Part shown: one piece after another, positions 44,986 to 64,000 of the stretch
Numbering within the stretch: the stretch's first letter is position 1
How the letters are laid out: each line of letters begins with the position of its first letter
Assembly (NCBI GenBank): GCA_029582165.1
Contig: CM055875.1
Location: forward strand, 7,423,501-7,487,500
Length of the DNA: 64,000 nucleotides
Source of the DNA: Portulaca oleracea
Lineage: Eukaryota > Streptophyta > Magnoliopsida > Caryophyllales > Portulacaceae
Reading direction: 5' to 3'
Translations under genes and position numbers: made by a program
Notes under the pieces: model-generated
What the model saw: the letters and a program-made list of their open reading frames with translations, nothing else
Database searches by the model: none
Told to the model about the DNA's origin: nothing

Positions 44986-45344
44986 GTTTTTGGCCACAAA
45001 TAATCAATACTGAGGGGCTTGTTATTAGGAATAATCCAACCTGACTTTTAGGCCACTGACAGTGTTTACTTTTTCACTATTTTCTCATAGCAGTCCAGAA
45101 TCAACTTTCGGCACCGGAAAGCTGACGTGGTGTCCGAAAATTTCCTTTTTGAAGTATGAATAAACATACTTTCCGGTTGTCAGGTCTACTTTCCAGTTGC
45201 CATGTCAGCTTTCTGGTGCTGGAAATTGATTTTGGACTGCTATGGGAAAATAGAGAAAAAGTACAAACTGTCAGTGCCCGAAAAGTCACTTTGGATTATT
45301 CCCAGTAACAAGCGCCTCATTACAGATTATTTGTGGCCAAAAAC
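44986..45344. mobile_element. Foldback MITE with about 150-bp inverted arms
   Basis: GTTTTTGGCCACAAATAATC opens the left arm and appears inverted at the right end (closing at 45344). The arms continue with GGAATAATCC, CACTGACAGT, ACTTTTTC and GCAGTCC to about 45120, and 45210 from the other side. Outer ends are clear, but the target duplication is not. Confidence 0.8.
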
Positions 45345-45384
45345 TCTATTACATATATCCTCAATACAATTATCAAATCAAACA

Positions 45385-45896
45385 ACAAGATAATTAATAG
45401 AGTGTCTAAACTTTGAAAGTCAATCCACAGCACGATTTCTTTGATGATAAATATGAGTAATCACCACCTCATCACAAAGGGACAAGAAATTCTAATATGT
45501 TGTGTCGGAGTAGGAATCTCCTAGAGAACCTGATAAGAGCCTTTAATTACATTAATAAGCACCAAAATATCACCTTCAATGTGGAGACGCATTAATCCTG
45601 CCAAGTAAGTAGCTCGAATGCAATTTCTCTTCGTTGTTGCCTCCGCAACCAAAACTAACTAGAAATCCAATATTAAAAGTCGAAGCTTGAATGAATCTCT
45701 TAAAGTGATCCCTAGTAATGAATCTATCGCCCGCTCCTACAAACAATTTCGAATCGTCAAAATTGATGTTCACCAAACTCCATGAGGGTTTACTCCAAGC
45801 AACCCAACGTGAGGTTTGACAAGCCAGAGAGGATTCCAAGTCCAACAAGTCTTGAAACTGCACCGCCATTTTGTGGACATTTTTGGCGTCTTTCAA
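45385..45896 (-). pseudogene. LINE RNase H fragment, minus strand
   Basis: WSKPSWSLVNINFDDSK is followed by VGAGDRFITRDHFKRFI, the start of a plant LINE RNase H (normally FDGS...GIGVVIRD). After frameshifts the text continues IEGDILVLINVIKGS, DEVVITHIYHQRNRAVDWLSKF. FDGS has become FDDS. It is a second, more decayed LINE piece, unlinked to the one at 2.9-5.5 kb. Confidence 0.75.
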
Positions 45897-45899
45897 ACT

Positions 45900-47035
45900 T
45901 TGAATACTTACGGGATGGAGAATTTATTGGGGTTTACTTTTTAAAACACTTCATGGATTACTTGCACATTTTATGAATAGTTACATTGTAAAATCACATT
46001 CCTTTTACTGTATGCATTTTGAGAATAATTGAACTAAACTTTAAGAGCAAACATCCACTCATTCCTACTCCTTAGGATTAGTTCAATTGGTTCATAAAAT
46101 GTTAAGCTCGGAAGAAGGTAATTTATGCAACACTATTTAAAAACATACAAATGCACCGCAAATTTGCATCGGTTCATTGTAAAACCATTATGAACATGAT
46201 TTATGCAATCTTGATGTTTTTTAGGTTAAAAGGAGTCATCACCCAACTTTTTTTAAGGAGAAAAGTCAAGACGAAATTGAAACGAAAATAATAGAAGACT
46301 CTGCCTATTAACCAAGAAGTGGATTCGGGAGTAAGGTTACGAACTCAAAAGGTAAAGACCTTTGAGTTCACCTCTCACTTAGGAAAGACTCTGGTAAAAG
46401 TTTGAATATGTGCTTTTAGTAAAGTTTGGAAGGAAAGTAAATTTAAACTTTACATGATTAATTCATTAAACATGCAAAAATGAATACTTTACAACATAAG
46501 CACAAGAACACTTTACATTGGAAATAAACACACAAAAGAGTATGATGTTTTCAAAGGCAACCTTTTCTAGCCTTGTTTGATCACTTGATTCTTGCCTCGC
46601 ACTTGATGGAATCCAATCGCACTTAGAAGAAAGATTATGACACTTCTTTGTTGATGTCAAATAGAACCAAACTTAGGGTAAGAAAAAGTTAAGAAAAGAC
46701 TTTTCATGAGGTCTTCTTATGGTGTTTTTGGATATGTTTTTGGTGTTTTTCTTGTGTTTTTGGATATGTTTCGGGAGATATGTGTTTAGGTTTAAGAAAA
46801 GGATTAAGGAGAAGGAAAATGAGGTTAAGAATGGTACATGAAATTAGGGAGAGAATATGAGAAAGTTGAAGTTTGATAGAGGAAAGATGAGAATAGAGTT
46901 TTAGTTCTTAGTTGTTGTTCTTTGCTTGGAGCTAGTAGGGTTCTATTTATAGGCTAGGGGATACTAGATTCGAATGAGGTTGAGAATACACCTAGTTAGC
47001 CTTGGTCAACAAGGTTACTTTGTTTTCATCAAGTT
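45900..47035. other. Intergenic DNA, no supported gene
   Basis: AT-rich sequence with GGTGTTTTTGGATATGTTT repeated at about 46720-46770. Could include part of an LTR. Nothing coding. Confidence 0.3.
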
Positions 47036-47039
47036 TAAA

Positions 47040-48082
47040 GTATGATTGTACTAGGAACAATGCATCACATGTTTTCTTTGGACGATGGCTTGCATGGGGG
47101 GGAGGTGAATCTAGGTATTAACACTTGGAGAGTCTCGGGGCCCGTACTCATCCCTCCTCACTCAAGCCAAAAGGGTAGTATCTTCTCACACCCGGGTGGA
47201 GGTTTAATTCACTCGAGACTCGGGAACCCCCAAGCTTGTGTCGGTCGTCCTTTGGATCGACCTCGAGCCTGTTTGAGTGGCTCGAGAGTGTTCCCCAACC
47301 CCGAGGGTGGTTGGTTGTTTTGTCATCAAGGAGAGGGTTAAGATTCACTTTAGGCTTAATTCAAGGGCGTCACGGCCATGATAACAGTGTCCCATGACAC
47401 CCCTCGGACAAAATGAGATTTGGGAGAAGGTTGGACGTCACACCCATGATAAGCATGTCATGATCGCGACAAGTTTGTCACGACTGACATCCCAAAAAGA
47501 CTTTTGGAGCTAAGGCACATGTCACACCCGCGACCACGCATTTGGTAGATTTAGGATTGAGAAATCGCTTGGGGTCACGACTGCGACCTCCAGTGTCACG
47601 GCCGCAACCACCTGATAGCCACCACCGCGACCCTGTTGACGACCTCCTGCCCAGATTCTCCCCGAGCCATGTCACACTTGGAAGAGGCATTTAATGCATT
47701 TAGCATGGGTCTTTTGTCATTTGATCCTTAGCTTCCTTCTTTCCTTCATTGTATTTAACCATTTACAATGGTTTGGAAGAGGCATTCATTGCTCATCCAT
47801 ATAAAGCTGAGATTTTCTCTCAAAGATCTCTATACTTCAAGTGTTGTTTACTTTATCCTCAACCTAATTGTGGTGTTGTTCAAGCAAAATCCTTTAGAGA
47901 ATTGTGATGGTTACATCCTTTATCAATTCTTGGGGGGTTTGATAGTTCTTGGGTGGTGGTTATCGTTTACCCCTAGTTCATATCTAGTGTGTGAAGCTCC
48001 ATTAATAGGATTTAGGTGTTACATGCATCACCATCTTCATCAAGTTCATCAACTCAAGCATTTAGTCCCATAGCATGCTCCA
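47040..48082 (+). mobile_element. LTR (5' LTR or its 3' part) of another Ty3/gypsy element
   Basis: The right end is fixed: GCTCCA (to 48082), two bases, then a primer-binding site. The same end (CTCCA-TT-PBS) is found in the nested element at 40.7 kb. It shares the CGTGAC/GTCACG palindromes (47370-47660). The left end is a guess. A (CTC)-rich GC patch lies at 47130-47340. No second LTR is found, and gag/pol are absent downstream. Confidence 0.6.
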
Positions 48083-48084
48083 TT

Positions 48085-48096
48085 TGGTATCAGAGC
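48085..48096 (+). promoter_or_regulatory. Primer-binding site (initiator tRNA-Met type)
   Basis: TGGTATCAGAGC, exact match to the common plant LTR-retrotransposon PBS, two bases after the LTR. Confidence 0.88.
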
Positions 48097-48602
48097 TAAG
48101 GTTAGGTTTACTTGGGTTTCTTCTTCAATTCAAAGTTAAGGTTTTAATTTCTTTCTTGTTGTTGACGTACAATAGGTATGTGTCGTTTTCATTTCCTCGT
48201 TAATAATACATTTCTCACTTTTGTATCATTCATGCTTTTCAATTCCGTGTTCCTACTCCTGGTAGAGATATCAACTTTTAAAAGGTTATCATGACTAGCT
48301 ATGATCACGACTATGTCGACTATCACGGCTACTGGCGTGACCTTTGTTTTGCTTATGATTCTTGAGATTATATCCTGCCACATTCACTTCAGGGAATGAG
48401 ACGAAACCATTTGGGGGTTCTAATGATCCCATAGGTCATTACTAATAAAATTATGTATATTTTTCATCTAAACATCATACTCCACACTTGTAATAAAAAT
48501 GTTCAATTTAATCGACGATATAAATCTTAATAACCTCAAGTATACTATCATCGTCTTTCAACAATTCTTATGCCAATTGACAACTCTATACTCTAATTGG
48601 CA

Positions 48603-49322
48603 GGAAAGCGAACTTCTGGTTCACTAACGAGATTATATAGAGCTTCAATGATTGGAGTGAACTTTTGGTGCACTACTAATACGTGTAATCAACGGAAATA
48701 AAATTTAATATTAGTGGTAGGATAAACTTCTGGTGCACCAATGAGATAAGAATTTTTTTTTTCAATAACAGAGTGAACTTCTAGTCACTAATAAAAATAG
48801 ATAAAATTCTTAACATTAGAGTGAACTTCAGGTTCACTACTGAAAATAAGACAAAATTCTTATTCTTGGATATAACTTCTCGTTAACTAATAAAATTAAA
48901 TAACAGTATCAATATTAGAGCGAACTTCTGGTTTACTCATAAGAGAAAATTTTCGACATATGAGTGAACTTCTGGTTCACTTAATGAAGTAAGGTAAACT
49001 TCTTATCATTCGGGTGACCTTCTAGTTCAAAGATAAAATTAAACAAAAACTTCCGTTGTAGGAGTGAACTTCAGGTTCACATAAAATAGACTTCGCATTA
49101 TTGAAACAAACTTCTGGTTTGCCAATGAAATAATACAACCTTTAACTACAACTATAATATTTAATTAAAAAAAATCAGTCATATAGAGGTGATTGAATGA
49201 CCTTCTGTTGATATTCGACATAATATTCAATATTGAAATGAACTTCTGGTTCACTATTAATATTTACAATTTATCATATTAGACAAAATTTAATATTGGG
49301 TGAACTACTGGTTCACTAATGA
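48603..49322. repeat. Array of about 14 palindromic repeats (GTGAAC-TTCTG-GTTCAC)
   Basis: AGTGAACTTCTGGTTCACTA and variants recur at about 48603, 48653, 48722, 48771, 48821, 48870, 48920, 48962, 49010, 49060, 49105, 49190, 49237 and 49301, mostly 45-65 bases apart. Each can form a 6-bp hairpin with a TTCTG loop. Spacers are AT-rich and differ. The array begins about 500 bases after the primer-binding site, in the place of the element's leader/gag. Not CRISPR: spacers share wording, repeats are degenerate and the genome is eukaryotic. Confidence 0.85.
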
Positions 49323-49561
49323 AATTGGATAAATAACATGTACGAAGGAGAAGCAAACCTGATGCTTCCAAACAAAAAGCAAAAGTATAATCTTTTTGTG
49401 GTAGTAATTCACAATTACAATCCTTCAAGTTGTAGTCCTCTCGTTGATCTCTTTTTTTTTGTTTGTTTGTACCCTTCGTCTTCTTTGCTTCGTGATCCGA
49501 TCCTCGGCTTCTACCGTGGATAAAAGTTAAATACGCGATAACTCTAATCAAGAGACTATAG

Positions 49562-49844
49562 TGTTGATACGTGTTATAAAACAATGAAAGATGAACGTGA
49601 AATAGAGAGAATAATAGAGAAGAACAATAGAGACAAGAGACAAGAGAGATTGAGAGAGGAGAATCAGATGATTTATTCATAACCCACAAGGGGTATTTAT
49701 ACTAGTTACATAGCAAGGGTCCTATACAATATAGACTCCATATGGGAATAGAATCCTCCTATATTATATCATCCTAACAGATAAAGATACCCAATAGATA
49801 TCTGATTGATATATGGACATTCAGAAATATATTATTTCATAACA
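49562..49844 (-). mobile_element. Solo LTR-like sequence, Ty1/copia type
   Basis: Minus strand opens TGTTATGAAATAATATATTT and closes CGTATCAACA, giving TGTT...AACA ends. GTATAAATACCCC (about 49691-49703) is a TATA box, followed by a leader rich in TCTCTTGTCTC-type repeats. No flanking 5-bp duplication matched, so the ends may be slightly off. Confidence 0.6.
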
Positions 49845-49879
49845 CTTTCAATGTTTTTGAAACTTTTTTTTAGTCATAC

Positions 49880-50010
49880 TTTCTCTACTACACACACACA
49901 CACACATATATATATAGTAAAAATATTGTAATTCATGTAAGATTCTTTTAATTTTCTTGATTAATTTACTCTTTTGTGTGGCCCAAAAAAAAATATAAGA
50001 CTTTATTAGT
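49880..50010. repeat. Direct repeat, copy 1 of a pair 12.1 kb apart
   Basis: CTTTCTCTACTACACAC, then (AC)n(AT)n, then ATATTGTAATTCATGTAAGA, TTTTGTGTGGCCCAAAAAAA and AGACTTTATTAGT. Copy 2 is at 61986-62201 with the AT run greatly expanded. Confidence 0.9.
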
Positions 50011-50012
50011 CA

Positions 50013-50041
50013 CTAGTCTTCCGACCCGTGCGTTGCACGGG
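50013..50041 (-). mobile_element. Helitron-like terminus (CTAG plus hairpin)
   Basis: On the minus strand CCCGTGC-AAC-GCACGGG (7-bp stem), then TCGGAAGA and CTAG followed by T. This is the layout of a Helitron 3' end pointing left. Confidence 0.6.
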
Positions 50042-50979
50042 ACATTATTAGATCACATATTTTATTTTCTATGTTAAAAATATATTAAAACCTTAAATTA
50101 TTACACATAAGTTATAAGAAATGTTGATTATATCTTACATATAAGGACATATAAAATTAACAGGAGAAGCAAACATTCTTTATAAAATAAGGTAATGTAT
50201 ATTATAAATTAAATAATTGTTTAATCAGATGAACTCATATAAAAAAAATAATAAATTAGTTGAATAAGGGAATTTAAAAAAAGTGCACTAATTTTTTTTT
50301 CTTTTCCAAAAAGCACACTAACCTATTAAAACAATAATTGAATTCTTGCATACTTGTATGATGTAATCTCTACAAAGTATACATTAATCTTGAATAAAAT
50401 GATAGTCTTTGTATGATACAAAATAAGATTGGATAGTTAATAATTAATATTCAATTTTAAATTTCTTTCTTTGGAGTGTATTCAATTCTAAATTTCTAGC
50501 TTTATTTTGATTTTTGAGAGCCTAAACCCTTATTTATGACAATTTGTATGGGGAGAAAAAAGATAAAAATATAGAAAGATGCAAGGTTAGATAATAAATT
50601 GTGTGTTTCTAACTATTTAATTTGTTTTTGTCATTAATACAATGTAACTTTTTTTTCATGTATTGAATTGAATGTGGTCAAAAGCTAAAAATTAAACCAC
50701 ACATATTATTAGTAGAAAATAAAACCATGTATGCATGTTGAAAACCTTACTAGCTTATATCATACAATGAAATTCGTATATGTATATTTTTCTTATCATT
50801 TCACTCAAATAAAAAAAGAAGTTATCATATATAAAATATTATACTTTTGTTTTAAGAGTTAAGATTTTCCAATTATATATCTTAAATTTAAAAATCTCAT
50901 AAAAAATAAGATAACATAAGTACCTCCTTGACATAAATACAGGTACTGTATGCTATAAAATGACAAAGACTATTGCATT

Positions 50980-51857
50980 TAGGGATGGCAATGGGCAGGG
51001 TCTGGGGCGGGTCTTGCTGGACTCGGACCCGTCAATTTTTTTTGGGACCTAGACCCGCCCAAGACCTGATGGGTCCCAAAAATTCAGACCCGGACCCGGA
51101 CTCAATGGGTCCATGGGTCCTTAGCGGGTCCTTAATGGGTCTAACCATATTATGCATCTTTTTACTAAATTTATTAACTTTTTGGGTTAATTTTATACTT
51201 ATATACATGTATAATAGTAACTATTCTATTTAAAAACACCTATTTTTAACACGATAAAAAGATGAAAACATCAATATACTATGATACGAGCGAATTCTAA
51301 GTTTCCAACGCCAAAACATCACAAAAGTCATCAAGACATCAACAAAATATTACAAAAGTCTCTCAAAATGCAACACAACTTTTCCATCAAAAAAAAAAAA
51401 ATACAACACAACTTAAAATGTCAAAAAAAAAGTTCATGCTTATAAAGAGATATATATATATATATGTTATAGTGGAGAATGGGATGGGCACTAGACTAGT
51501 AGTGCGACTGTGGTGGTTTGCGTGAGTCAGTGAGTGTGACTATGTGAGACTAGGGGTTTTAGTCTTTTAGATTTAGTATTTTAGTGTAGTATACAATAGA
51601 GTAGACTTGTAATTAACTAATTGAGTTTTTATTTTTTTTAGGAAAATTATAAATGTTTATATTGTAGTGGGTCCATAGGTAGGGTCCACGGGTCCGTTCT
51701 TGGACCTGGACCTGGATCCATTAAGTTTTTTCTAGACCCAGACCCTCCCCGAGACCCGATGGGTCCAAAATTTTTAAACCCAGACCCGTCTTAATGGGCC
51801 GGGTCCAACCGGGTTCGGGTCGGGTCCAACCGGGTCCAGGACCCACTGCCATCCCTA
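50980..51857. mobile_element. hAT-type non-autonomous element (Ac/Ds-like ends), 878 bp
   Basis: Ends TAGGGATGGCAATGG and, inverted, TAGGGATGGCAGTGG. The first nine bases agree with the TAGGGATGA-type ends of maize Ac/Ds. An exact 8-bp duplication ATTGCATT flanks it (50972-50979 and 51858-51865). Next to both ends are GGGTC/GACCC-rich subterminal repeats. No transposase is encoded. Confidence 0.9.
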
Positions 51858-51865
51858 ATTGCATT

Positions 51866-53370
51866 GAACAAACATATAAGACTATGCATTGAAGTTTAAA
51901 AAAAAAAAAGAAATTAGCCAAATTAAATATAAAATATTCAAATAAGTGAGAAATTAAGTTACACACATGGGAAAAGGGGGAAATATTCAAATACGAAGTA
52001 TCAAAAGAAAAAGGCTAGGCAGTTTTACAAAAAATTGAAAATTACTTATTATCGACCCTTATATTACTAAGAATCTCAAACCAAATTTTCACTTCATACT
52101 TATAAATTATAGATATAAAAAAGGTATATATTACATACACGATATCTTCAACCATGTTACATTACTTTACACTTGAAAAAGAGCAAAAACTTAAACAAAA
52201 TGATTTCTAATTGACTTCCAATTGTTAAATTCTGAACATAATTTGCTTGTTGCAAAATATATGCTCTCAATCTCAATGGACATGGATATATATATTTATA
52301 TCGCCAAATTAGTTATATATATGCATCCTTATTATTTATGTCTAATTTATAGGGTCAAACTTCAAATAAAGACCATGAGACGCTACTAATTGTAACTTTT
52401 AATACAGAATAGCATAGGTTACAATTTACAAATAGATTGAGGTTTGTTATTGTAATAACATAAGTTACAAATATTAAATATTTTTAATGAATAATAAAAT
52501 TAACGGCTATCATAATCAAACAAAATAAACATGTGCTCTCCTGATTAATTATCCTTATCCTTTTTTCACTTTTTTTTATAGAACTTCATTTTAAAATATT
52601 AAAACTATCACCATTTTTATTTTATCACATATTAAAATTATTTTATCTTAAAAAACAAAAACAAACATAATTTTTTTGGCATCAAAAAACATAATCTGTA
52701 GCATGTATTTATTTTAAATTTTCAATTAATCTTGAATCATGTACAAAGTAAGTAAATATGTTGGGCAAGAAGTACTATACTGATTAAATGAAAATAGTAT
52801 AACAAATGGTGCAAGAGGCTTGTCGCTTAGTGCTTGCCATTGAAAATATGGATTTTAGCATCAAATAATGAGATTTGTTTAAAAATGCTATAGCTATGGT
52901 CTATTTGTATGAGGGAGTGTAGAAGTATAAGGAGAAAATAACTTAAAAAAATCATGAAGAATATATTTGATTACATATTTAGATGGACAAAACATATGTG
53001 TACTCAACTTACCAATCATTTGGTCCATATAAAGTGCATAAATCCCTTGAAGTCATGTAAACAAATCATGGAGAATATAGTTGCTTGAGGCTGTGTTGAC
53101 AACACTCCATCATTTTAAAAGCTTTTAGGATAGGGAAATATGCATACATATATTTTAATTTTATTCCTATTAAAATAATTCGTAAATTTGAATTTGAATA
53201 GGAAAACCTTTTTAGGACTCGATAATATTTAGACTGTACGAATGAGTTGTAATCAAACATGACAAATAAAAAAATTGAATAAAAATGAAAATTGAGACTA
53301 ATTTAGACAGTGACATACAATTGTAAAGTGAATAAAATAAAAAATTCAACCTAATTTATACGATAGAATA
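51866..53370. other. AT-rich DNA without supported features
   Basis: No gene, and no bounded repeat that I could confirm. Poly-A and poly-T runs are frequent. Confidence 0.4.
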
Positions 53371-53373
53371 ATA

Positions 53374-53700
53374 AAAACTTATATTATATCATAACAACAT
53401 ACCTTTTTGAGCCATGATATGAATTATTTTTCAAAAGTCAAATTTGATACAAATACAACCTGTGCACTCAAAATTCCTTTGAATATGTAAAAAATATACT
53501 AATTATGATAAATAAATTAACAGTCGCTAAACAAGGAAAACTTATATTATATCATAACAACATACCTTTTTTGAGCCCTGATATGAATTATTATTCAAAA
53601 GCCAAATTTGATACAAATACAACCTGTGCATTCAAAATTCCTTTGAATATGTAAAAACTATACTAATTATGATAAATAAATTAACGGTTGCTAAACAATG
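53374..53700. repeat. 163-bp tandem duplication
   Basis: AAAACTTATATTATATCATA starts at 53374 and again at 53537. Copies share ACAAATACAACCTGTGCA and AAATTAACxGTxGCTAAACAA and differ by only a few bases, so the event is fairly young. Confidence 0.9.
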
Positions 53701-53754
53701 AAAGTGAACAAAAAGTTTCTCATATAAAATAAAATAAAATGAACGAATCTCCAA

Positions 53755-53960
53755 CGTCATTCTTTGATTGATAATTTCTTACGTAATATGTTATTAATAA
53801 TTGTAATATTATACTTTTATGATAGTATTTTTCGTTACAAATCTAATGGTGATAATTTTACATAGCAACTCATTGCATATATTGAGAAATTTACGGTCAA
53901 AATTTTTGAAATTTGACTGCACAATTTCCAAAGACGACAATTAATATGGAACGGAGGGAG
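53755..53960. mobile_element. Stowaway-type MITE remnant with only the right end
   Basis: Right end ACGGAGGGAG followed by TA (53951-53962), the standard Stowaway end. The interior (ATATTATACTTTTATGATAG, TTACAAATCTAATGGTGAT) matches the complete copy at 54432-54667. The left terminus is lost. Confidence 0.7.
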
Positions 53961-54431
53961 TAGCAAATTAGCAATAAGCAAAAATGAAAGACTATGCAAA
54001 AAACTATGCAACAATGTATTATGAGTATAATAATTATGGGTATAATAATTTTTGGTGATGGAATCTATGATAAATTATGAGTAAAAAAGACTATGCAAAA
54101 ATGAATTTCGGCAACAACTTCTGACCCAAAGTATATGTGATTTGAATTGCAATTTGATATTTATAAGAGTGTATTGTGTGTAATAGCTAAAAGTAAAAAT
54201 GAAAAATGAAAGGTCAAATAATTAATGAAGGAAAGGTTACAAAATCAAGATGAAGAATAAAGACAATAAATAGCAAAGTAAATGGTGTTTAATGGATTAT
54301 GAAAAATTGAATATTTATAAAGGATTTTATTGTTTTGATTAGAAATTTTAGAAGTACTATGTTCCATTGCCCTTTTTCTTCTATTATTTTTTTTTAAAAT
54401 TTGCAATTACATACTTTTTAGTTATTTAATA

Positions 54432-54667
54432 CTCTCTCCGTTTTTTTTTATCTGTTATTTACGGTTTTCAGTGCCAATTTTTAATTAATAATTTCTAATA
54501 TAAAACTTTTATAGAAAAATATAATATTATACTTTTTTAATAGTATTTTTTATTACGAATCTAATGATATTAAGTTTGTATGATGAATCATTATACAAAT
54601 TAAGATATTAACGGTCAAAGTTTTTGCCACAATTCCCTAGGCGACAGATAAAACAAAACGGAGGTAG
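54432..54667. mobile_element. Stowaway-type MITE (Tc1/mariner), 236 bp
   Basis: Left end CTCTCTCCGTTTT and right end inverted CTACCTCCGTTTT, flanked by TA on both sides (54430-54431 and 54668-54669). Size and ends fit Stowaway MITEs (CTCCCTCCGT). Confidence 0.88.
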
Positions 54668-55062
54668 TATTAAATAGTAAACAAAAGTGATATTAACTAT
54701 ATATACTTTTAACAGTATTATTTACATTATATACTTTTTAGTTAATTTTCAACAAAAGTGATATTAATTATATATACTTTTTATAGTTAACTAAAAAATA
54801 ATATGATTAACTATATATACTTTTTACAGTATTAATTTAATATTTATAAAGTATACTTTTGTAGAATAGTAAATAATATGATTATATTTTACAGTAGGTG
54901 TTATGACTTCAGAATTGAATATATATATATATAATGTATATAATTAACTTTTTATTTATTTTTAATAGTAACTCATTCTGATAATTAATAAGCATATTAG
55001 CAATTAATATGTATATAATGACTTTTCTTTTTTAAAAAATAAACATCACTGATTATAACATT

Positions 55063-55120
55063 CCCAAAATGCCCTTCGCAAAACACACATATTACGATCC
55101 TCATCCTTTGTACCCAGAAA
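55063..55120. repeat. Conserved terminal block, copy 1 of 4
   Basis: CCCAAAATGCCCTTCGCAAA...ATCCTCATCCTTTGTACCCAGAAA-type block followed by (TA)n. Close relatives at 55401-55461, 56655-56715 and 61786-61841. Copies 1 and 3 sit just left of a CTAG hairpin terminus, so the block probably is the opposite end of a neighbouring Helitron-like unit. Confidence 0.75.
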
Positions 55121-55130
55121 TATATATATA

Positions 55131-55159
55131 CTAGTTCTTAGACCTGTGCTTTGCACGGG
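55131..55159 (-). mobile_element. Helitron-like terminus (CTAG plus hairpin)
   Basis: CTAG at 55131-55134, then hairpin CCTGTGC-TTT-GCACGGG (55143-55159), the same layout as at 50013. Confidence 0.6.
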
Positions 55160-55400
55160 ACGCAAATAAACTATACATATTATTGAAAATATTGTTGATG
55201 TTATATTTAAAAGAATAAATAAAAAAGCAATAGTGAAAAATAAAAAGAATAGTTTTCTTATTTAAAAGAAAACAGAAAAGAGAACAGTGCATATGAAAAA
55301 AAAGAAAAAGACAAAAGTCATCAATGCAAACATACACATTAATACGCACATTAATATTACATAATTTTTTTTTTAAAAATTAAATAGAATCAATTATAAA

Positions 55401-55458
55401 TTTTCCAAAATGCCCTCATTAGAATCCACATATTTCAATCCTCACCCTTTATACCCAG

Positions 55459-55508
<50 letters not shown>
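55401..55508. repeat. Conserved terminal block, copy 2, with (AT)n run
   Basis: TTTTCCAAAATGCCCTCATT through CTTTATACCCAGAAA (55401-55461), then about 46 bases of AT repeat. No CTAG hairpin follows, so the terminus seems replaced by the microsatellite. Confidence 0.7.
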
Positions 55509-56654
55509 CAATGGTTATAAACTTGCAAAAGAAAAACTAGGAGATGGGTTGAAGTTGGGTTGAAGTATGCTATAGTTTTATTAGGAGATGGAGGAAAATA
55601 CCTTGTAAAAAAATCTTATCCGATATATGCATTTTTATTGAAAAACTATGGTTATAAACTTGCAAAAGAAATTAACAAAATAATTATTTACACTATACTT
55701 AGCATAATTTTTAGAAAACATAAACATACATATATGAGGAAAAGTAGAATAAGCAATAACTGTGTTGGATTAATAAATTTTAGAGAACTTAATAGTCTTA
55801 ATATACCTATATGAAAAAAAAAATCATACCAAAAAAAAAAAAATCTTGGATTTATCTGGTAGATGTATTATACTAAGGTAGGAAAAGAGTGGAGTTGGGT
55901 TGAAATATGCGAGAGTTTAAATAGGAGATATAAGAAATTACCTTGTAAAGAAATCTTATCCAACATTTGCAGTTTTAAAAAAACATCCCGTATAAAAATC
56001 TGCAATAGAAATTAATAAATTAATTATTTACACAAAACTTAGCATAATATTTAGAGAACGTAAATATACAAATATGAAGAAAAGAAGAATAAGCAATACA
56101 TAGTATTGGATCGAAAAGTTTTAGAGAATGTAAATATACCTATAGGAAAAGAAGAATAAGAAGTGAGGCTTAAATATGACATCTATAATCTGTTTTTTAT
56201 TTTTTATTTTTTTAAGGCTAGGATGTGTATGATATCTTTGATAAAATGGTCAAGTAGTAATAATCACCAATTAATGACATTACTAAATAAAATATAGTGT
56301 CACTTACAACTTATGTAATAATGAGCAATTAACAATAGCTTGAGGGACATAGTACTTCATGAATCATGACTAACAGTTTTAAGCCAATACTATTGAGCAA
56401 TAATTAATAATTATTAGTGATCACTTTGCCGTTTAAATGTATGATACTATTGGCCCACATTTATCTATATTTAATTTGAGCTTAAGCGGCATATGTTAAT
56501 ATTCTAGAAAAATAATTTTTAAAAACATTTAAGTTATACATTAAATTGTAATGTACCATAAATATTTCTATTAAAGAGTAAAGTCTAAGTAATTTATACA
56601 TGCTACAACATTGTTTTTTTCTAAAAAAAAATAATATAAATGATCTATTATACG
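55509..56654. other. AT-rich interior of a Helitron-like unit
   Basis: Contains a diverged internal duplication (ACTTGCAAAAGAAA..., TGCAATAGAAATTAATAAAT) between 55505-55800 and 55880-56120. An 84-codon AT-rich frame at 55560 is not supported as a gene. Confidence 0.4.
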
Positions 56655-56729
56655 TTTCCCAAAATACCCTCATTGAATCATACATATTACAATCCTCACC
56701 CTTTGTACCCAGAAATATATATATACTAG
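56655..56729 (-). mobile_element. Terminal block copy 3 and split Helitron-like terminus
   Basis: Block 56655-56715, (TA)n, then CTAG at 56726-56729 and TTCTTATAC. The hairpin that should follow is 0.8 kb away at 57557-57571 (CCGTGC-TTT-GCACGG), displaced by the MULE-like insertion. Confidence 0.7.
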
Positions 56730-56738
56730 TTCTTATAC

Positions 56739-57548
56739 CAAAAAACGGCTCTGGGGCCCTCATATTTTGGTGTAATAATTATAAGGGCCCCTTATTTTTC
56801 TAAATTACTGGGATGTGACATTATATTTGATGAAATTATTTGGGAGGGACTTTCAGGCTGAATTCCGGCCAAAAATTGGTGGGAGACATTTAATGATGTA
56901 TTTATTGTGGATTAAGTGTTTGGTGAGTTAAACCAACTCCATTAATTAGGGGGAATAAAAAGAAATCAAAAAATAAAAACTGAACATAATTAAAAGGTTG
57001 ACCAACCCCCCACCCCCAAATTGAAAACCCAAATCAATTTGATAGAGAGAGAAGCAGATTACCTGTGTATTCCAGAAAGTGAGACAGAGCAAGTTGGACG
57101 TCCTCCATTGAAGAAGAGTGCCCATCCTTGGCAAGCTTCCACCTCATTCTCGGTTTCACCTCACTCTTGCTTCCCTCCTCCTCATTGAATATGTGATAAA
57201 ATGGCAGAACAAAGGGAGGGAGGATGAGAGAGATGTATGTTGAATTGGGAAGGAATGAAGTGACTTTTTTAGTTGGGTAGGGGGGATATACTTAAGTGTT
57301 TTTAGTTTTTTTTTAAAAAAAAATTTTAAAACTTTAATCTTTCATTAATGTTAATTACAATTGACTTCCTTTTAAAACACTATTATGCATTTAATCACTT
57401 GGTTCCCGCCATTTTTGGCCGGAATTCAGCCTGAAAGTCCCTCCCAAATAATTTCAACAATTATAATGTCACCTCCCATTAATTTAGGGAAATAGGGGGC
57501 CCTTATAATTATTACACCAAAATATGAGGCCCCCAGAGTCGTTTTTTG
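56739..57548. mobile_element. MULE-like element, 810 bp, with exon-like cargo
   Basis: Long inverted ends (about 150 bp): left CAAAAAACGGCTCTGGGGCC, right inverted CAAAAAACGACTCTGGGGGC, continuing through TTTTGGTGTAATAATTATAA and GGCTGAATTCCGGCC. The 9-bp duplication TTCTTATAC is exact (56730-56738 and 57549-57557), the signature of Mutator-like transposition. The interior at about 57055-57210 carries coding-like sequence on the minus strand. No transposase. Confidence 0.9.
57062..57209 (-). pseudogene. Captured exon-like fragment inside the MULE-like element
   Basis: On the minus strand a frame of about 49 codons is open: VLPFYHIFNEEEG, then KPRMRWKLAKDGHSSSMEDV, then QLALSHFLEYT, ending in ACAG/GTAAT, a good donor site. 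Composition is less AT-rich than the arms. I do not recognise the protein. Its exon-like end suggests a gene fragment taken from genomic DNA. Confidence 0.5.
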
Positions 57549-57571
57549 TTCTTATACCGTGCTTTGCACGG

Positions 57572-59488
57572 TCATATTTTAATCTTCATATTTGTAAAAA
57601 TATGATATTGTTGAAAATTTGTAATGCAATATACAATCACGTATTTACGATGTGTACAATAATACATTAATACTTGTCTATTTCCTTGAACAAAATTGAA
57701 TTTAGTGTAAATCATACAAATTGAATACATCCAATGTTCAAACATAGAATTTCTATGAAATTAAACATATTCAAAGTCTACCAAATTAAATTTGTTATTG
57801 CTTGCTTAAATATAAGAGAGTTTAAACATTATGTTATTGCATTGAATAAATCATGGATAATCTCCAAGCATTATCTATTTATTAAATTATATGTTTTTTT
57901 TAACTTTTTAATGCTAGGAACAAAATTGAATATGTTCACATTTTAAACTTTTTAAATCTTAATCCATACTGAAAAGTTGCATATTCAATTTAATTATTTG
58001 ATAAAAGTATAAAACATATTATAATATTTGTAAGAGGAAGATATATATGAATAAGCTTATATGAAACTTTTTCAATAGACATTGAATATGATTGAATATA
58101 CTTGTATGAAACTAACATATGCATGTACAAAAATCATATAGAAAACTAAAATCTACTATTTAACTTGTAAATATATTACAATGAGAAAAAAAAAAAAGCA
58201 ACTTATAGTCAGATAACAGTCAAGTATCAAAAACAGTAACTATTTTTAAAATTTATACGATACACATTTCTTAATAGCATACTTACAAACTTAATGGCAA
58301 GCAAATAAATAAATAAAAATTATAGAAAACATTATAAAAATTTGATAATATTAGGGTTTGGTTGGCCTAAACTCTAAAAACTATAAAATTACATACATAT
58401 GTTAGTTTTTTTATGGATCACATACTCAAGGTAGTTAGTAAGGACTTTAGTTCATTTCATAAATTTTAATTAATTCATTGAATGATATATATTACTATAA
58501 TCATAAATCTTTATGAAGCTAATATAACAATGACAATAGTGCTTACAATAATTAATTTTTATGTAAATATGTATTTTAATGTAAAAACCAATATGAAAAC
58601 CAAAAATATTAAAATATAATATGAAAAGTAATTAATTTTTTTAATAGAAAATAATAAATGAGAATCAGTTTGGAAAAATCAAAATGAAAATATGTACATA
58701 TTTTAATAGTACTTTCTATAGAACAATATAGTGTTTTGTTCAAGTATATGTGATAACATTAAGTAAAAACTTTATTTTGTAATCTAAATGCTGAATATGC
58801 ATTAGAAAAATTAAAGGAAAATTCATAAAAATCAAATGAAAATTACTCTTGACTTGTATGAAATTGCAATATATACTTATCGCAAAACATAGTGAAATTT
58901 AAAATGAAATATGAAAATTACCTTTTCACCAATTGTAGCTTTTGGATTTGATATTCAACCTACTCCAAATTTCCATAGCTACATGCTTAGACGGTTACAC
59001 CTTGCTCCCTTTTATAAGGGTAATAAACACCATTACAAAATGAAGAAATGAGGGAAGATTTATAACCATCAATTAATAATGACAATTCAATAAAATTAAT
59101 CCATGATAAGTTTCAAGAAGGATGAGTTACAAACATTCACATTCAAAAGTTGAAACGTTTAATGAAAGCATTAAAAATATCATCAATTAGTAACTAAAGC
59201 TCAAATTTTTTTCTATTTTCTTCAGAAAAAATATAGTTGAAATAATTTTTTTTTGAAATATATATTTTATTAATATTGCTAAAGTTACAGTTAAAAAAAA
59301 AGTTACTTTTGTAATTTTTCAAAATACTATTTATAAAATTGTTCACAAATTTGGCCATTATTTCCTTTCTCCAAAACTAAATATGTTTTGTCATTAAAAA
59401 ATCCATTTATTATTGGTTATTACTAATTATTAATGGTAAACAATAGTTTAATTTACTGAAAAAATTTATTATTGGTTATTTCTAATAA
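57572..59488. other. AT-rich DNA, interior of a Helitron-like unit
   Basis: Very AT-rich with no gene or bounded repeat seen. Short frames such as that at 57734 have no domain. Confidence 0.4.
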
Positions 59489-60612
59489 TTTTATAAAGGG
59501 AAATTGGAATCTAATAAACCAACCTTTGAGGGTCCTTTGAAATAACGAACCAACCTTGCAAGCTAATTTATAACATGTTAATTTTTCTAACGAACCTTCG
59601 GCGAGTCCCACAGGGCGGAAAACTGACGTGGCGGTGTTTTAGCCAAAAAAAAGGAAATTTTTTTTTGCTGAGTTGGATTAAATAAATCAACTTTTTCTTT
59701 TTTTCTTTTAAATCCAACTCAATTTTTTTTTCTCCTCTCTCTCTCTCTCTCTCTCTCTCTTTATCACCCCAGCCCCCCCCCCCCACACCCATCTCCCGCC
59801 ACACTCTGACCAGCTCATCTCCGCCTAGATCCCCGACTGCCTCGCCTCCCTCTAGGCCCAGATCTTCGCCCAGCAGCAATCCGCCATCACTGAGTTCTCC
59901 AAACCCCAGCCCCAAAACGACGACGTCCCCTTCTCCGAGCCCCTTGTCTCCCTCTGCCAGAAAATGGACGCTTGCGGCGTCCTCAAGCTCGTCGTCGCGC
60001 GGCGGAAGGAGTCGACGGCGTTCCGGAGCGAGATCCTCGCCGCCGTGTCGGAGGCGGTGGACAGGGAGAGGCTCGTCTTGGACGTCGTCGGAGAGTTCGT
60101 CGAGCAGAAGGGCACCGGGAAGAGCTGGATGACGGACAAGCGGTGGGTCTGCGGGGTGCTCGTCGGCGGGATGTTCAAGCCGGAGGATCTCAAGAGAGGC
60201 GCCGTCGCCGGCGGTGGGTTTTCGAGGAAGGCGGCGGAGAGGGCGGAGGAGCTGGTCAGAGTGTGGCGGGAGATGGGTGTGGGGGGGGGGTGGGGTGATA
60301 GAGAGAGAGAGAGAGGAGAGAGACTGTGAGAGAGAGAGAGAGGAGAGAGACTATGAGAGAGAAAAAGAGAATTGAGTTGGATTTTAAAAAAAAGAAAAAA
60401 TTGATTTATTTAATCCAACTCAGCAAAAAAAATTCCTTTTTTTTTGGCTAAAACACCGCCATGCGCCTTTCCCTTCCTACTATGAATTCGGAGTTCGTTA
60501 GAAAAATTAACACTGCAGTTCTGGTCATTGTAAATTACCGCGCCGAGTTGGTTCGTTATTTCAAAGTACCCTCAAAGGTTGGTTTATTAGATTCCAATTT
60601 CCCTTTTATAAA
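59489..60612. mobile_element. Pack-MULE candidate carrying a FRIGIDA-like gene fragment
   Basis: The element proper is 59498-60603 (1106 bases), flanked by an exact 9-bp duplication TTTTATAAA (59489-59497 and 60604-60612). Terminal inverted repeats start GGGAAATTGGAATCTAATAA and extend about 250 bases as element sequence. They then continue as an inverted pair of gene-derived sequence (59760-59826 against 60235-60300), so each arm is about 330 bases. The centre is GC-rich and codes for a FRIGIDA-like segment. There is no transposase, so movement would depend on a MULE elsewhere. Confidence 0.9.
59856..60300 (+). pseudogene. FRIGIDA-like (FRL) protein fragment captured by a MULE
   Basis: From 59856 the frame reads AQIFAQQQSAITEF, then FSEPLVSLCQKMDACGVLKL (ATG at 59964), VVARRKESTAFRSEILAAVS, VDRERLVLDVVGEFVEQKG, DKRWVCGVLVGGMFKPEDL and AERAEELVRVWREMG. 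This is the order of the conserved FRIGIDA-family core (MD-GL-F-V-RRK, VDP-LVLD-V-EF, R--C--L). A TAG at 59853 closes the frame upstream, and the C-terminal end runs into GA-repeat and element sequence. About 145 codons, a quarter to a third of a normal FRL protein. No introns. Very GC-rich compared with its surroundings. A transcript could make a truncated protein or, because of the inverted arm, double-stranded RNA. Confidence 0.75.
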
Positions 60613-60986
60613 AGTTTAAACTAAAAGTTAACTACCTTGTAACAGAAAAGGAGGATAAAAAAGAATACATTAGCAATTTTTATATAAGTATATTTCATAG
60701 TACGTAACTTCATATCAATTAGGAAATGTAAAAGCATTTTGATAATATCAGCTTAATTCCTATCAAAAAAAAATCAGCTTAATTATATTAGTTAATATAA
60801 ATAACATTGGAACTATCTTTCATATCCAAAATTAAATATCAAAATTATTTTTTATTAAATTAAATACAATAACGTTGCCTTATAAGAATAAATAGATACC
60901 TTGAACTAAGCGTAATTATTATTCTTATATTTTAATTAAATTAATAAATTGTTATTTATTGCAAATAGTAACTCACCATACATTTA

Positions 60987-61193
60987 GGCCCTGTTCGACA
61001 AAATTAGCGGTTTAGATAGCGGATAGCGATTTAGATAGCGGATAGAGGTTTGAGCAGCGGATAGCGGTTTGAGTAGCGGATAGCGAATATGTTCATAGGA
61101 GCGTATGAGGAAAATATGTTCGGTAAATTTTAGCAGTTGAATTAGCTTATGGACATAAAATGACCAAAACGGACATGACTATCATTTTTTTTA

Positions 61194-61226
<33 letters not shown>

Positions 61227-61673
61227 CTCCCAAAGCTAATTAAACATAGTTATGTCATTAAAATAAAAGTAAAAAAAACTAACCATGACATGATATAAAT
61301 GGAAGAAATAAAGAAATATTTATAAAACTTTATCCACTAAATTGAAAAAAAAGAAATCATGCATGCTGATCATCATCATCATGGTATTCTTTAATTTGCA
61401 TATTATTTGAACACCTTTATTGAAACAATTAGGCAGTTTTTCTCCGTCATTAATTCATTACGGAGGGGAACTGAGGGCATTTTAGCCATTAGGAGCTCAA
61501 ACGCTAATTCAAAGCAGCAGACGTTAATATATATAACGTTTTTTAGATTTCCATCCAAACGCTATAAGCTGTTAACAAACGCTCATTTACCGAACACTAG
61601 TAAATAGAATAGTAGAGTTTTGAATTAGTCAAAACACTAAACGCTACTGAAAACGCTACTGCCGAACAAGGCC
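60987..61673. mobile_element. PIF/Harbinger-like (Tourist-type) element, 687 bp
   Basis: Ends GGCCCTGTTCGACA and, inverted, GGCCTTGTTCGGCA, flanked by TTA on both sides (60984-60986 and 61674-61676). Subterminal TAGCGG repeats (AGCGGATAGCG, GCGGTTTAGATAG) occur five or more times at 61005-61090, and ACGCTACTG twice at the other end. (TTA)n at about 61195-61225. A hAT assignment is possible if the true duplication is longer. Confidence 0.75.
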
Positions 61674-61785
61674 TTAATATTTATGAAGTATTGTTTTTTC
61701 AAAAAAAAGGTAATCATGATTAATAATCAATTAATATGTATAAAGTTTTTTTTTTTAAAAAAGAGTAAACATTAGCAATTATAAT

Positions 61786-61841
61786 TTTCTGAAAATACCC
61801 TTATAGAAACTCATATATTCCAACCTCACCCTTTGTACCCA
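61786..61841. repeat. Conserved terminal block, copy 4 of 4
   Basis: TTTTCTGAAAATACCCTTAT...CCTCACCCTTTGTACCCA matches copies at 55063, 55401 and 56655. Followed by AT-rich microsatellite. Confidence 0.75.
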
Positions 61842-61867
61842 ATTTTATTTATATATTTATATTTATA

Positions 61868-61896
61868 TATGATATATATATATATATGATATATAC

Positions 61897-61964
<68 letters not shown>

Positions 61965-62011
61965 ATATGATATATGATATATGATTCTTTCTCTACTACA
62001 CACGCACACAA

Positions 62012-62094
<83 letters not shown>
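61868..62094. repeat. Long (AT)n microsatellite with (CA)n
   Basis: Two AT runs (about 61900-61960 and 62028-62094) around CACACGCACACAAACACACAC. Short frames of Ile/Tyr repeats on the minus strand are artefacts of it. Confidence 0.95.
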
Positions 62095-62097
<3 letters not shown>

Positions 62098-62201
62098 AAA
62101 ATATTGTAATTCATGTAAGATTCTTTTAATTTTCTTGATTAATTTACTATTTTGTGTGGCCCAAAAAAAAAATAAAGATAGATATAAGACTTTTATTAGT
62201 T
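61986..62201. repeat. Direct repeat, copy 2 of a pair 12.1 kb apart
   Basis: Same text as 49880-50010 (CTTTCTCTACTACACACGCA, ATATTGTAATTCATGTAAGA, TTTTGTGTGGCCCAAAAAAA) with the AT run expanded by about 60 bases and a short insertion before GACTTTTATTAGTT. Confidence 0.9.
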
Positions 62202-62202
62202 A

Positions 62203-62241
62203 AGCGACCCCCTTTATCAATATTTTCTAGCTCCGCCCCTG
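62203..62241. mobile_element. hAT-like terminus fragment
   Basis: CTAGCTCCGCCCCTG at 62227-62241 is the inverted form of CAGGGGCGGAGCTAG, the terminus of the hAT family at 36792. ACCCCCTTTATCAAT precedes it. No partner end was located. Confidence 0.45.
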
Positions 62242-62290
62242 GTATGGACAGTTACTTATCCATGATTTTTATAAAATTTCAAATAACTAA

Positions 62291-62319
62291 TTTAGTTCAC
62301 TCCGTGTATTGCACGGGTA
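62291..62319 (-). mobile_element. Degenerate Helitron-like terminus
   Basis: TTTAGTTCACT followed by CCGTG-TATTG-CACGG (62302-62316), the same arrangement as at 50013 and 55131 with CTAG changed to TTAG. Confidence 0.45.
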
Positions 62320-62341
62320 GAGGCCTAATAATCTATTAAAT

Positions 62342-63464
62342 ATATTAAAACAAGACCACCTAAGGGAAATCCATACCTAGATGGTGAAATTTGGGAGGTT
62401 TGATTGCTCCTAACCTACTACCGAACCAAAATAATTGTTGTCAATTAAAAAATAAATTAATAGGAAATATTTTGATTACACTAAGATTTGAACCTTGATG
62501 AGGAGCATAGAAGACAAGAGTAATTACCATTTGACTATCACCAATTTTGTATTATTATTGTTACGTACAAAGATAATATTCTATCAATCATTTTCAAATT
62601 GGAATTATTATGAGATTAATATATACTATACTATACGAGGATTAATGATAGATAAATGATAAAACTTTAATATAATTTTATTTAGCAAATAAAGTTTATA
62701 TATATATATATATAAGTATATTTTTTGAGATATATAATTTAAATTAGTATTCAAAAATATTTGTATTATGAAAATATATGAACAAAAATACTACAACAAT
62801 TTTTCAGTATTAAATAAAAATTAATATCAATAATTTACTCCATATTATTTTTGAAACTAATATAATTAAATTCCTTCTCTTTCACCTTTCATCTAAAAAA
62901 AAAATGAAATAGGTTCATTATTTATCATATTTTTAATGATCTTATTGAATTTTTCACAAACATTATTTTTTATGTGTAAAATAATAATTAATCTCTTTTT
63001 ATTATGAAAAAAAGTAACGCAACTGCCTTTTGATTGATATTGTGATTGTTTGACATATTATTAAATTTTAGAATTAGTAATTATTTTTTAATTTGTGAGT
63101 ATTAGTTATTCTACTAAATGTTAATGCAAAATAATTTCTCTAACATTTTATATTTTAATTATTTTATAAAAGCATCATATTCTATAAAAAATCTAAAATA
63201 GAAATATTTAGTATTATTTTTTTAATGTATGTGTCTATGGAAAAAATTATAACACATCATTGTTGATTTTATTTTCATAAATTCATAATTATATTTTAAT
63301 TAACTAAATTAAAATAAATTATGTAATTAATATTTTCTAATATATGATATATATGTGTTTGTGTGAAAGTTTTTTATTTCAATATTAATAAGTTTAACAC
63401 ATATATTCTATCACAAAATAGTATAAGACACATAATTCTCGATATTTTAATAGTTGACAATTTT
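62342..63464. other. AT-rich interior of a Helitron-like element
   Basis: No coding sequence. Bounded by a degenerate hairpin terminus on the left and a clear one on the right, so it may be one non-autonomous element of about 1.2 kb. Confidence 0.35.
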
Positions 63465-63494
63465 CCCGTACATGAACGGGATATATACCGCTAG
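63465..63494 (+). mobile_element. Helitron-like 3' terminus on the plus strand
   Basis: CCCGT-ACATGA-ACGGG (63465-63480), ATATATACCG, then CTAG (63491-63494) followed by T. Hairpin-to-end spacing of 10 is the classic Helitron value. Confidence 0.65.
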
Positions 63495-63949
63495 TAATAA
63501 TAATAAAGATATTACTAATTGCACACCATTGATATCAAAATAAATTAAATTAAAATATATTGTTGACATTTACAACAAATCACGTTTAACATGGTGCAGT
63601 TACACCTAAAGATTTTCACATTCAAAGACTCATAGTAGATGGTTAGGAGAATCGGAAGACCATCCTATTCAATTTTCCGAATTTTATGCGTCATATTCAA
63701 TAATATTTATTGAAAGGGTAACTGATATATGGGAGATCCGTTGGAGTGTGTGCGTGGTGCCAAATAAGATAAAGAGAGAATAATCCTTTCTTGAGAAATT
63801 TAATGGATGGTAGATGATGCTGTTGTTTTTGATTGGAGATAATACTCTTGAGAATCAGTATAATCAGACCCAAGGAACAAATCAACGATATCTTGAATCA
63901 CCAAAAGAATTGGACATGATCTCAGACAAAGGAGAATCTACCACCAAGA

Positions 63950-64000
63950 CGTAACACCCCACCATGATTAGACAAATGATTGCCTACCACTAATTAATTA
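63950..64000 (+). mobile_element. Possible LTR start cut by the window end
   Basis: CGTAACACCCCACC at about 63951-63964 resembles the TGTAACACCCC start of large plant LTRs. Too little sequence remains to test it. Confidence 0.2.

Follow-up and report, generated by a model that had tools for sequence, protein, structure and literature searches.

Does a fragment of a FRIGIDA-like (FRL) gene that lies between long inverted repeats in the genome of Portulaca oleracea belong to a transposon that took it from its host? A sequence-only reading of the 64,000-nucleotide stretch analysed here (the window) had proposed a Pack-MULE with a FRIGIDA-like fragment. We find that the unit is almost certainly a non-autonomous Mutator-like element (MULE) of a large family that captured part of an FRL4a-type exon 1, that is, a Pack-MULE; the proposal draws its support from the target-site duplication (TSD), empty sites, siblings with the same ends, candidate parents and junctions. 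We regard it as an ordinary, well-resolved Pack-MULE, a clear if broken instance of a familiar process.

Boundaries, insertion site and family of the mobile unit

The mobile unit (59498–60603, 1106 bp) is directly visible between exact copies of the 9-bp sequence TTTTATAAA, and its ends read GGGAAATTGG...CCAATTTCCC (Table 1). A 9-bp flank match at a fixed distance has a chance of ~8e-6 given the base composition, and such a match flanked 1 of 200,000 random 1106-bp spans within the window. For the empty-site query, both flanks were joined with one copy of TTTTATAAA and searched in the same genome (1.135 Gb, 63 contigs), which gave 13 matches, including the two flanks themselves and continuous sites on contigs C19, C15, C26, C2 and C24 (85–87%). 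All five related sites lack the entire unit; a single TTTTATAAA stands at the joint in four and a 4-bp deletion in the fifth. These single-copy sites indicate that the element inserted into an older repeat, and together with the exact flanking copies they support the perfect 9-bp duplication claimed earlier. The long inverted ends of the same reading also held, as arms of 328 and 362 bp (element positions 1–328 and 745–1106) that are 77% identical overall in the BLAST alignment, with microsatellite indels. The outermost 57 bp of the two arms are identical at 56/57 positions, indels and divergence mark the middle (~58–130), and farther in the arms agree closely again except in microsatellite length. 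Both lengths lie within the 100–500 bp of MULE terminal inverted repeats (TIRs), and the TIR is common to a family. A 34-bp end pattern (≤3 mismatches) occurs in the window at the two element ends only, with 0 occurrences in 100 shuffles. The RNA of the whole unit is predicted to fold as one long hairpin (minimum free energy −640.4 kcal/mol, a value that stands without shuffle comparison). No transposase was detected between the TIRs: among the 8 stop-to-stop frames of ≥60 amino acids overlapping the element, the FRL frame alone had a Pfam match. An Rfam scan of 45000–64000 at gathering thresholds returned 0 matches.

Table 1. Coordinates of the element, its flanking duplication and its capture junctions (window positions).
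Feature	Position	Strand	Evidence
Left TSD, TTTTATAAA	59489–59497	+	Exact 9-bp match to right copy; single in 4/5 related empty sites, 4-bp deletion in the fifth
Left TIR, transposon-derived part (~300 bp; starts GGGAAATTGG, CT microsatellite and C-run inside, ends CCCATCTCCC)	59498–59797	+	Sibling-arm matches, arm alignment
Left-arm inverted copy of the 25 nt that end the captured FRL piece; first 6 nt also transposon sequence	59792–59816	−	Exact reverse complement of 60249–60273
Junction filler ATCTCCGCCTAG, ending in an in-frame TAG	59817–59828	+	11/12 like a parental exon-1 stretch
Captured FRL4a-type exon-1 fragment, one in-frame TAG at 59853	59829–60273 (3′ end approximate)	+	92%/90% DNA identity to C2/C23 over 59829–60276; Pfam Frigida
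GGGAGA, 6-bp microhomology of parent gene and transposon	60268–60273	+	Element compared with parents; sibling arms
Right TIR, ending CCAATTTCCC	60268–60603	−	Arm alignment, sibling arms
Right TSD, TTTTATAAA	60604–60612	+	Exact match to left copy

A search for other copies with the same ends revealed a family. The 35-bp end (≤2 mismatches) occurs 647 times in the genome (326 forward, 321 reverse; backwards control, 0), and the first 163 bp of the left arm gave at least 41 matches (40 of the 1427 first candidates scored). Thirty TIR loci were fetched, of which 20 held a paired element and 10 were unpaired and left out, giving 18 distinct elements with the unit at 59498–60603 included. Seventeen of the 18 measure 1.0–1.6 kb and one 2.6 kb; their flanking 9-mers agree at 9/9 positions in 12 and at 8/9 in 6 (best of the candidate ends with one-base shifts, without a random control). 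Sibling interiors are, by eye, mostly CAC/GGT-like low-complexity repeats. Sibling L028 carries a protein-kinase piece (Pfam Pkinase 4.5e-27, above the cut-off), and L031 probably carries a transporter piece (PTR2, 1.2e-5, 24.9 bits, below the cut-off of 27). The FRL exon had no match in the other 17 elements at E 1e-5. Siblings L013 and L014 have partly non-repetitive interiors, possibly further captures, in which the one frame tried for each had no Pfam match.

We base the Mutator label on the lengths of TSD and TIR and on the form of the family. A search for a partner that encodes transposase and has the same ends brought none to light: the TIR was present at 0 of 30 MULE-transposase loci taken with ±1.5 kb (150 MULE-transposase matches scored of 3122 candidates). 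An 11.2-kb unit on contig C5 (46323798–46334969) has flanking 9-mers that agree at 8/9 positions; the first 57 bp of its ends are 96% and 93% identical to those of the family, falling to only 75–76% over 153 bp. Two of its 8 scanned frames are Copia-type retrotransposon parts, and no transposase was seen among the eight.

The captured FRIGIDA-like core and its candidate parents

The core matches Pfam Frigida (PF07899; 4.5e-20, 72.6 bits against a cut-off of 25.7) over profile positions 5–118 of 289 only, and comparison with plant FRL proteins agrees, so that the FRIGIDA-family core of the sequence-only reading stands, as does its GC-richness (65.8% versus 35.4% in the window; GC3, 91%). Two details of that reading need adjustment. 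The core had been placed at 59856–60300, where the FRL homology is real, but the true start is 59829 and the end ~60273 (the BLAST match runs to 60276). It had also been called intron-free, which is correct because the piece sits entirely within exon 1 of the parents; for that reason the absence of introns is uninformative on retro-copying. The fragment amounts to ~148 of ~530 FRL residues and lacks its own start and the remaining domain and exons, and its frame is interrupted by TAG at 59826 (in the junction) and 59853. It is therefore not a complete FRL coding sequence, with homology ending at ~60273 and a TAG at 59853. A full-length Opuntia FRL protein has one match in the window (residues 71–219 of 530, at 59829–60281), and hence no intact FRL gene extends beyond the inverted repeats.

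The proteins nearest to the fragment are those of Opuntia streptacantha (74%) and Carnegiea gigantea (66%), which head the scores of 121 fetched; identity in the 38 further rows listed peaks at 48% (Spinacia). The Opuntia-protein search yielded a homologue set of 155 proteins, 120 of them among the matches listed, and a tree of 45 rows was built from the fragment and the best 44 of these 120 that aligned well enough. The fragment clusters with the Opuntia and Carnegiea proteins (support 100/99), an affinity that suggests a host probably related to cacti within Caryophyllales. Among the matches listed, many related proteins bear the name FRIGIDA-like protein 4a; the captured part is FRL4a-type exon 1 and, unlike the FRIGIDA-like protein 4a genes themselves, covers a fraction of the residues and contains stops. 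A solved-structure search gave 5 matches, the best being an ORC6 chain (E 0.048), with FRIGIDA at E 0.12.

The search for a parental gene, proposed with the sequence-only reading, identified candidates elsewhere in this genome. The protein search hit five places, namely the fragment itself, contigs C2 (87%) and C23 (88%), a short piece on C1 (64%) and a distant match on C18 (30%). A DNA search with 59800–60285, in which a missing match is no proof of rarity, likewise gave five matches: the fragment itself, C2 (92%), C23 (90%), the C1 piece (76%) and the fragment's own inverted tail. C2 and C23 both contain an FRL gene that looks complete and gives three exon-like matches; the captured stretch falls inside the first of these. 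The cargo is thus host-gene sequence, its candidate parents being non-transposon three-exon FRL genes, and it was found at one place only in the genome. The sole similarity to the family TIR in the 8-kb parent loci spans 16 bp (E 0.085). The C1 piece (56508637–56508762) is a partial third FRL copy, 89.5% identical to C2 over 362 bp, and no family TIR was found in its 3.1-kb locus. By the Nei–Gojobori method, the fragment differs from C2 by dS 0.186 and dN 0.034 and from C23 by dS 0.193 and dN 0.040, and C2 differs from C23 by dS 0.183 and dN 0.017. Given these similar dS values, the fragment split from both parents at about the time when the parents split from each other, and an unsampled third parent may have been the source.

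Capture junctions and proposed origin

Both junctions between gene and transposon could be observed directly. Sibling arms commonly finish in a form of CACCCCAGCCCCCC(ACA)CCCATCTCCCC, and of 35 sibling-arm matches to the left arm, 31 reach no farther than element position 300; the other four run on to 303, 309, 315 and 328 (the last in L021_R), in C-rich low-complexity sequence, a small overrun of the proposed native TIR end that counts against the reading. The right arm merges with the gene at GGGAGA, a hexamer common to transposon and gene. In the left arm, 59798–59816 is the reverse complement of the last 19 nt of the gene piece past the microhomology; this stretch agrees with C2 at 18/19 positions and with C23 at 17/19; for a 20-nt version, none of 1000 shuffles reached the observed score. 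The element has A at 60260, where both parents have G, and the left arm has the matching T at 59805. With this shared private base, the inverted tail is most simply read as a copy of the element's own right end, and the extra length of the left arm probably stems from copying inside the element; counting against such copying, the mutation shared by the arms may instead derive from an unsampled parent. The parental counterpart of the filler (59817–59828) lies ~45 bp further on, at an element place of ~59862–59873, and 5 of 1000 shuffles equalled its score.

We read filler, microhomology and inverted tail as marks of template switching during repair, with an order of steps that we infer as follows. 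An ancestral element with ~300-bp TIRs and a low-complexity (CAC/GGT) interior would have suffered a break or stalled fork inside. Repair synthesis would then have jumped to FRL exon 1 and returned at the right through the GGGAGA microhomology. In a later step, the left arm may have received an inverted copy of the right arm's inner end together with the terminal 25 nt of captured gene, so that the TIR grew by host-gene sequence and a short filler was left behind. Once complete, the element presumably moved into an AT-rich repeat on contig C8 by means of a transposase provided in trans, and 9 bp were duplicated there.

Elements of this kind have precedents. In the available text of PMC3310237, the Pack-MULEs of rice, maize, tomato and Arabidopsis share with this unit the 9-bp TSD, long TIRs, non-autonomy, a host-gene fragment with identifiable parents, GC-rich cargo and many siblings; in contrast to them, the FRL piece here is closest to cacti, the cargo is FRL4a-type and most siblings have CAC/GGT-type interiors. 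Section 4.2 of that source, as far as available, credits to Hanada 2009 and Lisch 2002 MULEs in which acquired sequence is built into extended TIRs. Acquired gene sequence forms part of the inverted arms in those elements and here alike, but the present stretch is just 25 nt, 6 of them microhomology, and its shared private base suggests that it probably arose by copying within the element. Animal Pack-TIRs have been explained, in the accessible part of PMC8277862, by gap filling or fork stalling and template switching, with microhomology of 1–36 bp (median 2 bp) at one or more breakpoints in 190 cases (67.6%); the likeness is breakpoint microhomology, here 6 bp at one junction of a plant element. 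In rice relatives, the part of PMC4858842 at hand describes MULE-derived genes as coming mainly from GC-rich parents, consistent with the 65.8% GC of the core.

Alternative readings and significance

Conceivably, the gene piece arose by retro-copying or local duplication of FRL sequence and simply happens to lie between inverted repeats unrelated to it; it is indeed intron-free and GC-rich. That reading is vanishingly improbable, given that the fragment is internal to a single exon, which makes the lack of introns uninformative, that gene and transposon meet at a microhomology with gene sequence in both arms, and that the empty sites lack the entire unit. A different carrier, either a non-Mutator TIR element (hAT, PIF/Harbinger or CACTA) or an unclassified foldback, might be envisaged on the grounds that the superfamily is read solely from TSD length and long TIRs, with no transposase linked to these ends. 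We consider this highly unlikely: the 9-bp duplications are exact in 12 of the 18 elements and agree at 8/9 positions in the other 6, whereas the available section of PMC8903248 gives TSD lengths of 8 nt (hAT) and 5 nt (CACTA), and MULEs have TSDs of 9–11 bp and TIRs of typically 100–500 bp according to section 1 of PMC3310237, as far as that text was available.

That the captured frame is a working new gene under selection, for example through a short open reading frame from the ATG at 59964 (121 amino acids), is extremely unlikely, even though the core keeps 21 of the 27 columns that are ≥90% conserved in other FRLs (the Opuntia protein keeps 22) and pairwise dN/dS between core and parents is 0.18–0.21. 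The pairwise ratio includes time spent inside a real gene, and the piece has neither its own start nor the remainder of the Frigida domain. Codon changes private to the element number 10 non-synonymous (one a stop) to 7 synonymous; the parents differ from each other at 5 and 17 such codons, respectively (Fisher p = 0.045). The private changes are indistinguishable from neutral (p = 0.15); C>T or G>A accounts for 11 of 22 differing bases in these codons. Weighed against the conserved columns, these changes point weakly to a fragment in decay, for which we expect no protein function. An origin of the stop at 59853 by change of a methylated CAG to TAG was rejected, as the parents have TCC there; the same origin is possible for the filler TAG at 59826.

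The flowering-time relevance suggested by the sequence-only reading is correct as to the FRL-family cargo and less well supported otherwise, the fragment being FRL4a-type, truncated and interrupted by stops. In the portion of PMC13075006 available, FRI-family members are mainly tied to flowering time, which Arabidopsis FRL4 and wheat FRL4a affect, and silencing or overexpression of tobacco FRL4a left flowering time unaffected; a flowering role of the fragment is therefore not to be assumed. Since each arm of the single hairpin (arm lengths 328 and 362 bp) contains 25 nt of FRL, read-through transcripts might be processed by Dicer into small RNAs that silence both FRL4a-type parents in trans. 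This is a long shot judged from sequence; if true, the insertion would act as a regulator of the two parents. The element matters little for flowering biology unless transcripts or small RNAs turn up. Its value lies in adding a non-grass example that displays candidate parents, empty sites, siblings and the two capture junctions together, and a concrete case of a host-gene stretch turned into part of a transposon end, for which copying inside the element is the probable route. With hundreds of ends and at least two other cargo-bearing members in 18, the family would be useful for testing how MULEs acquire genes. Our literature search found, among the matches listed, no published report of FRIGIDA-like capture by such an element.

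Some further features of the window were noted. The host sequence around the element (57548–59497, 60604–60986 and 61674–62094) is an older dispersed repeat, with pieces on C2, C15, C19, C24 and C26 at 71–92% identity, that was struck by two later DNA transposons. The second insertion (60987–61673, 687 bp) starts GGCCCTGTTCG, ends CGAACAAGGCC and has TTA on each side, as seen by eye; it is missing from all five empty-site loci, and no terminal inverted repeat was listed at its ends. We take it to resemble a PIF/Harbinger-type MITE. TTA-type TSDs are given for PIF elements in the accessible part of PMC8903248. Elsewhere, 15971–16417 (447 bp, 64.4% GC) is the sole other stretch in the window that is nearly as GC-rich as the core, a RING-finger protein frame lies at 30469–31167 (−), and a pectinesterase gene with a PMEI domain, matched in two open frames, occupies 6974–9500 (+).
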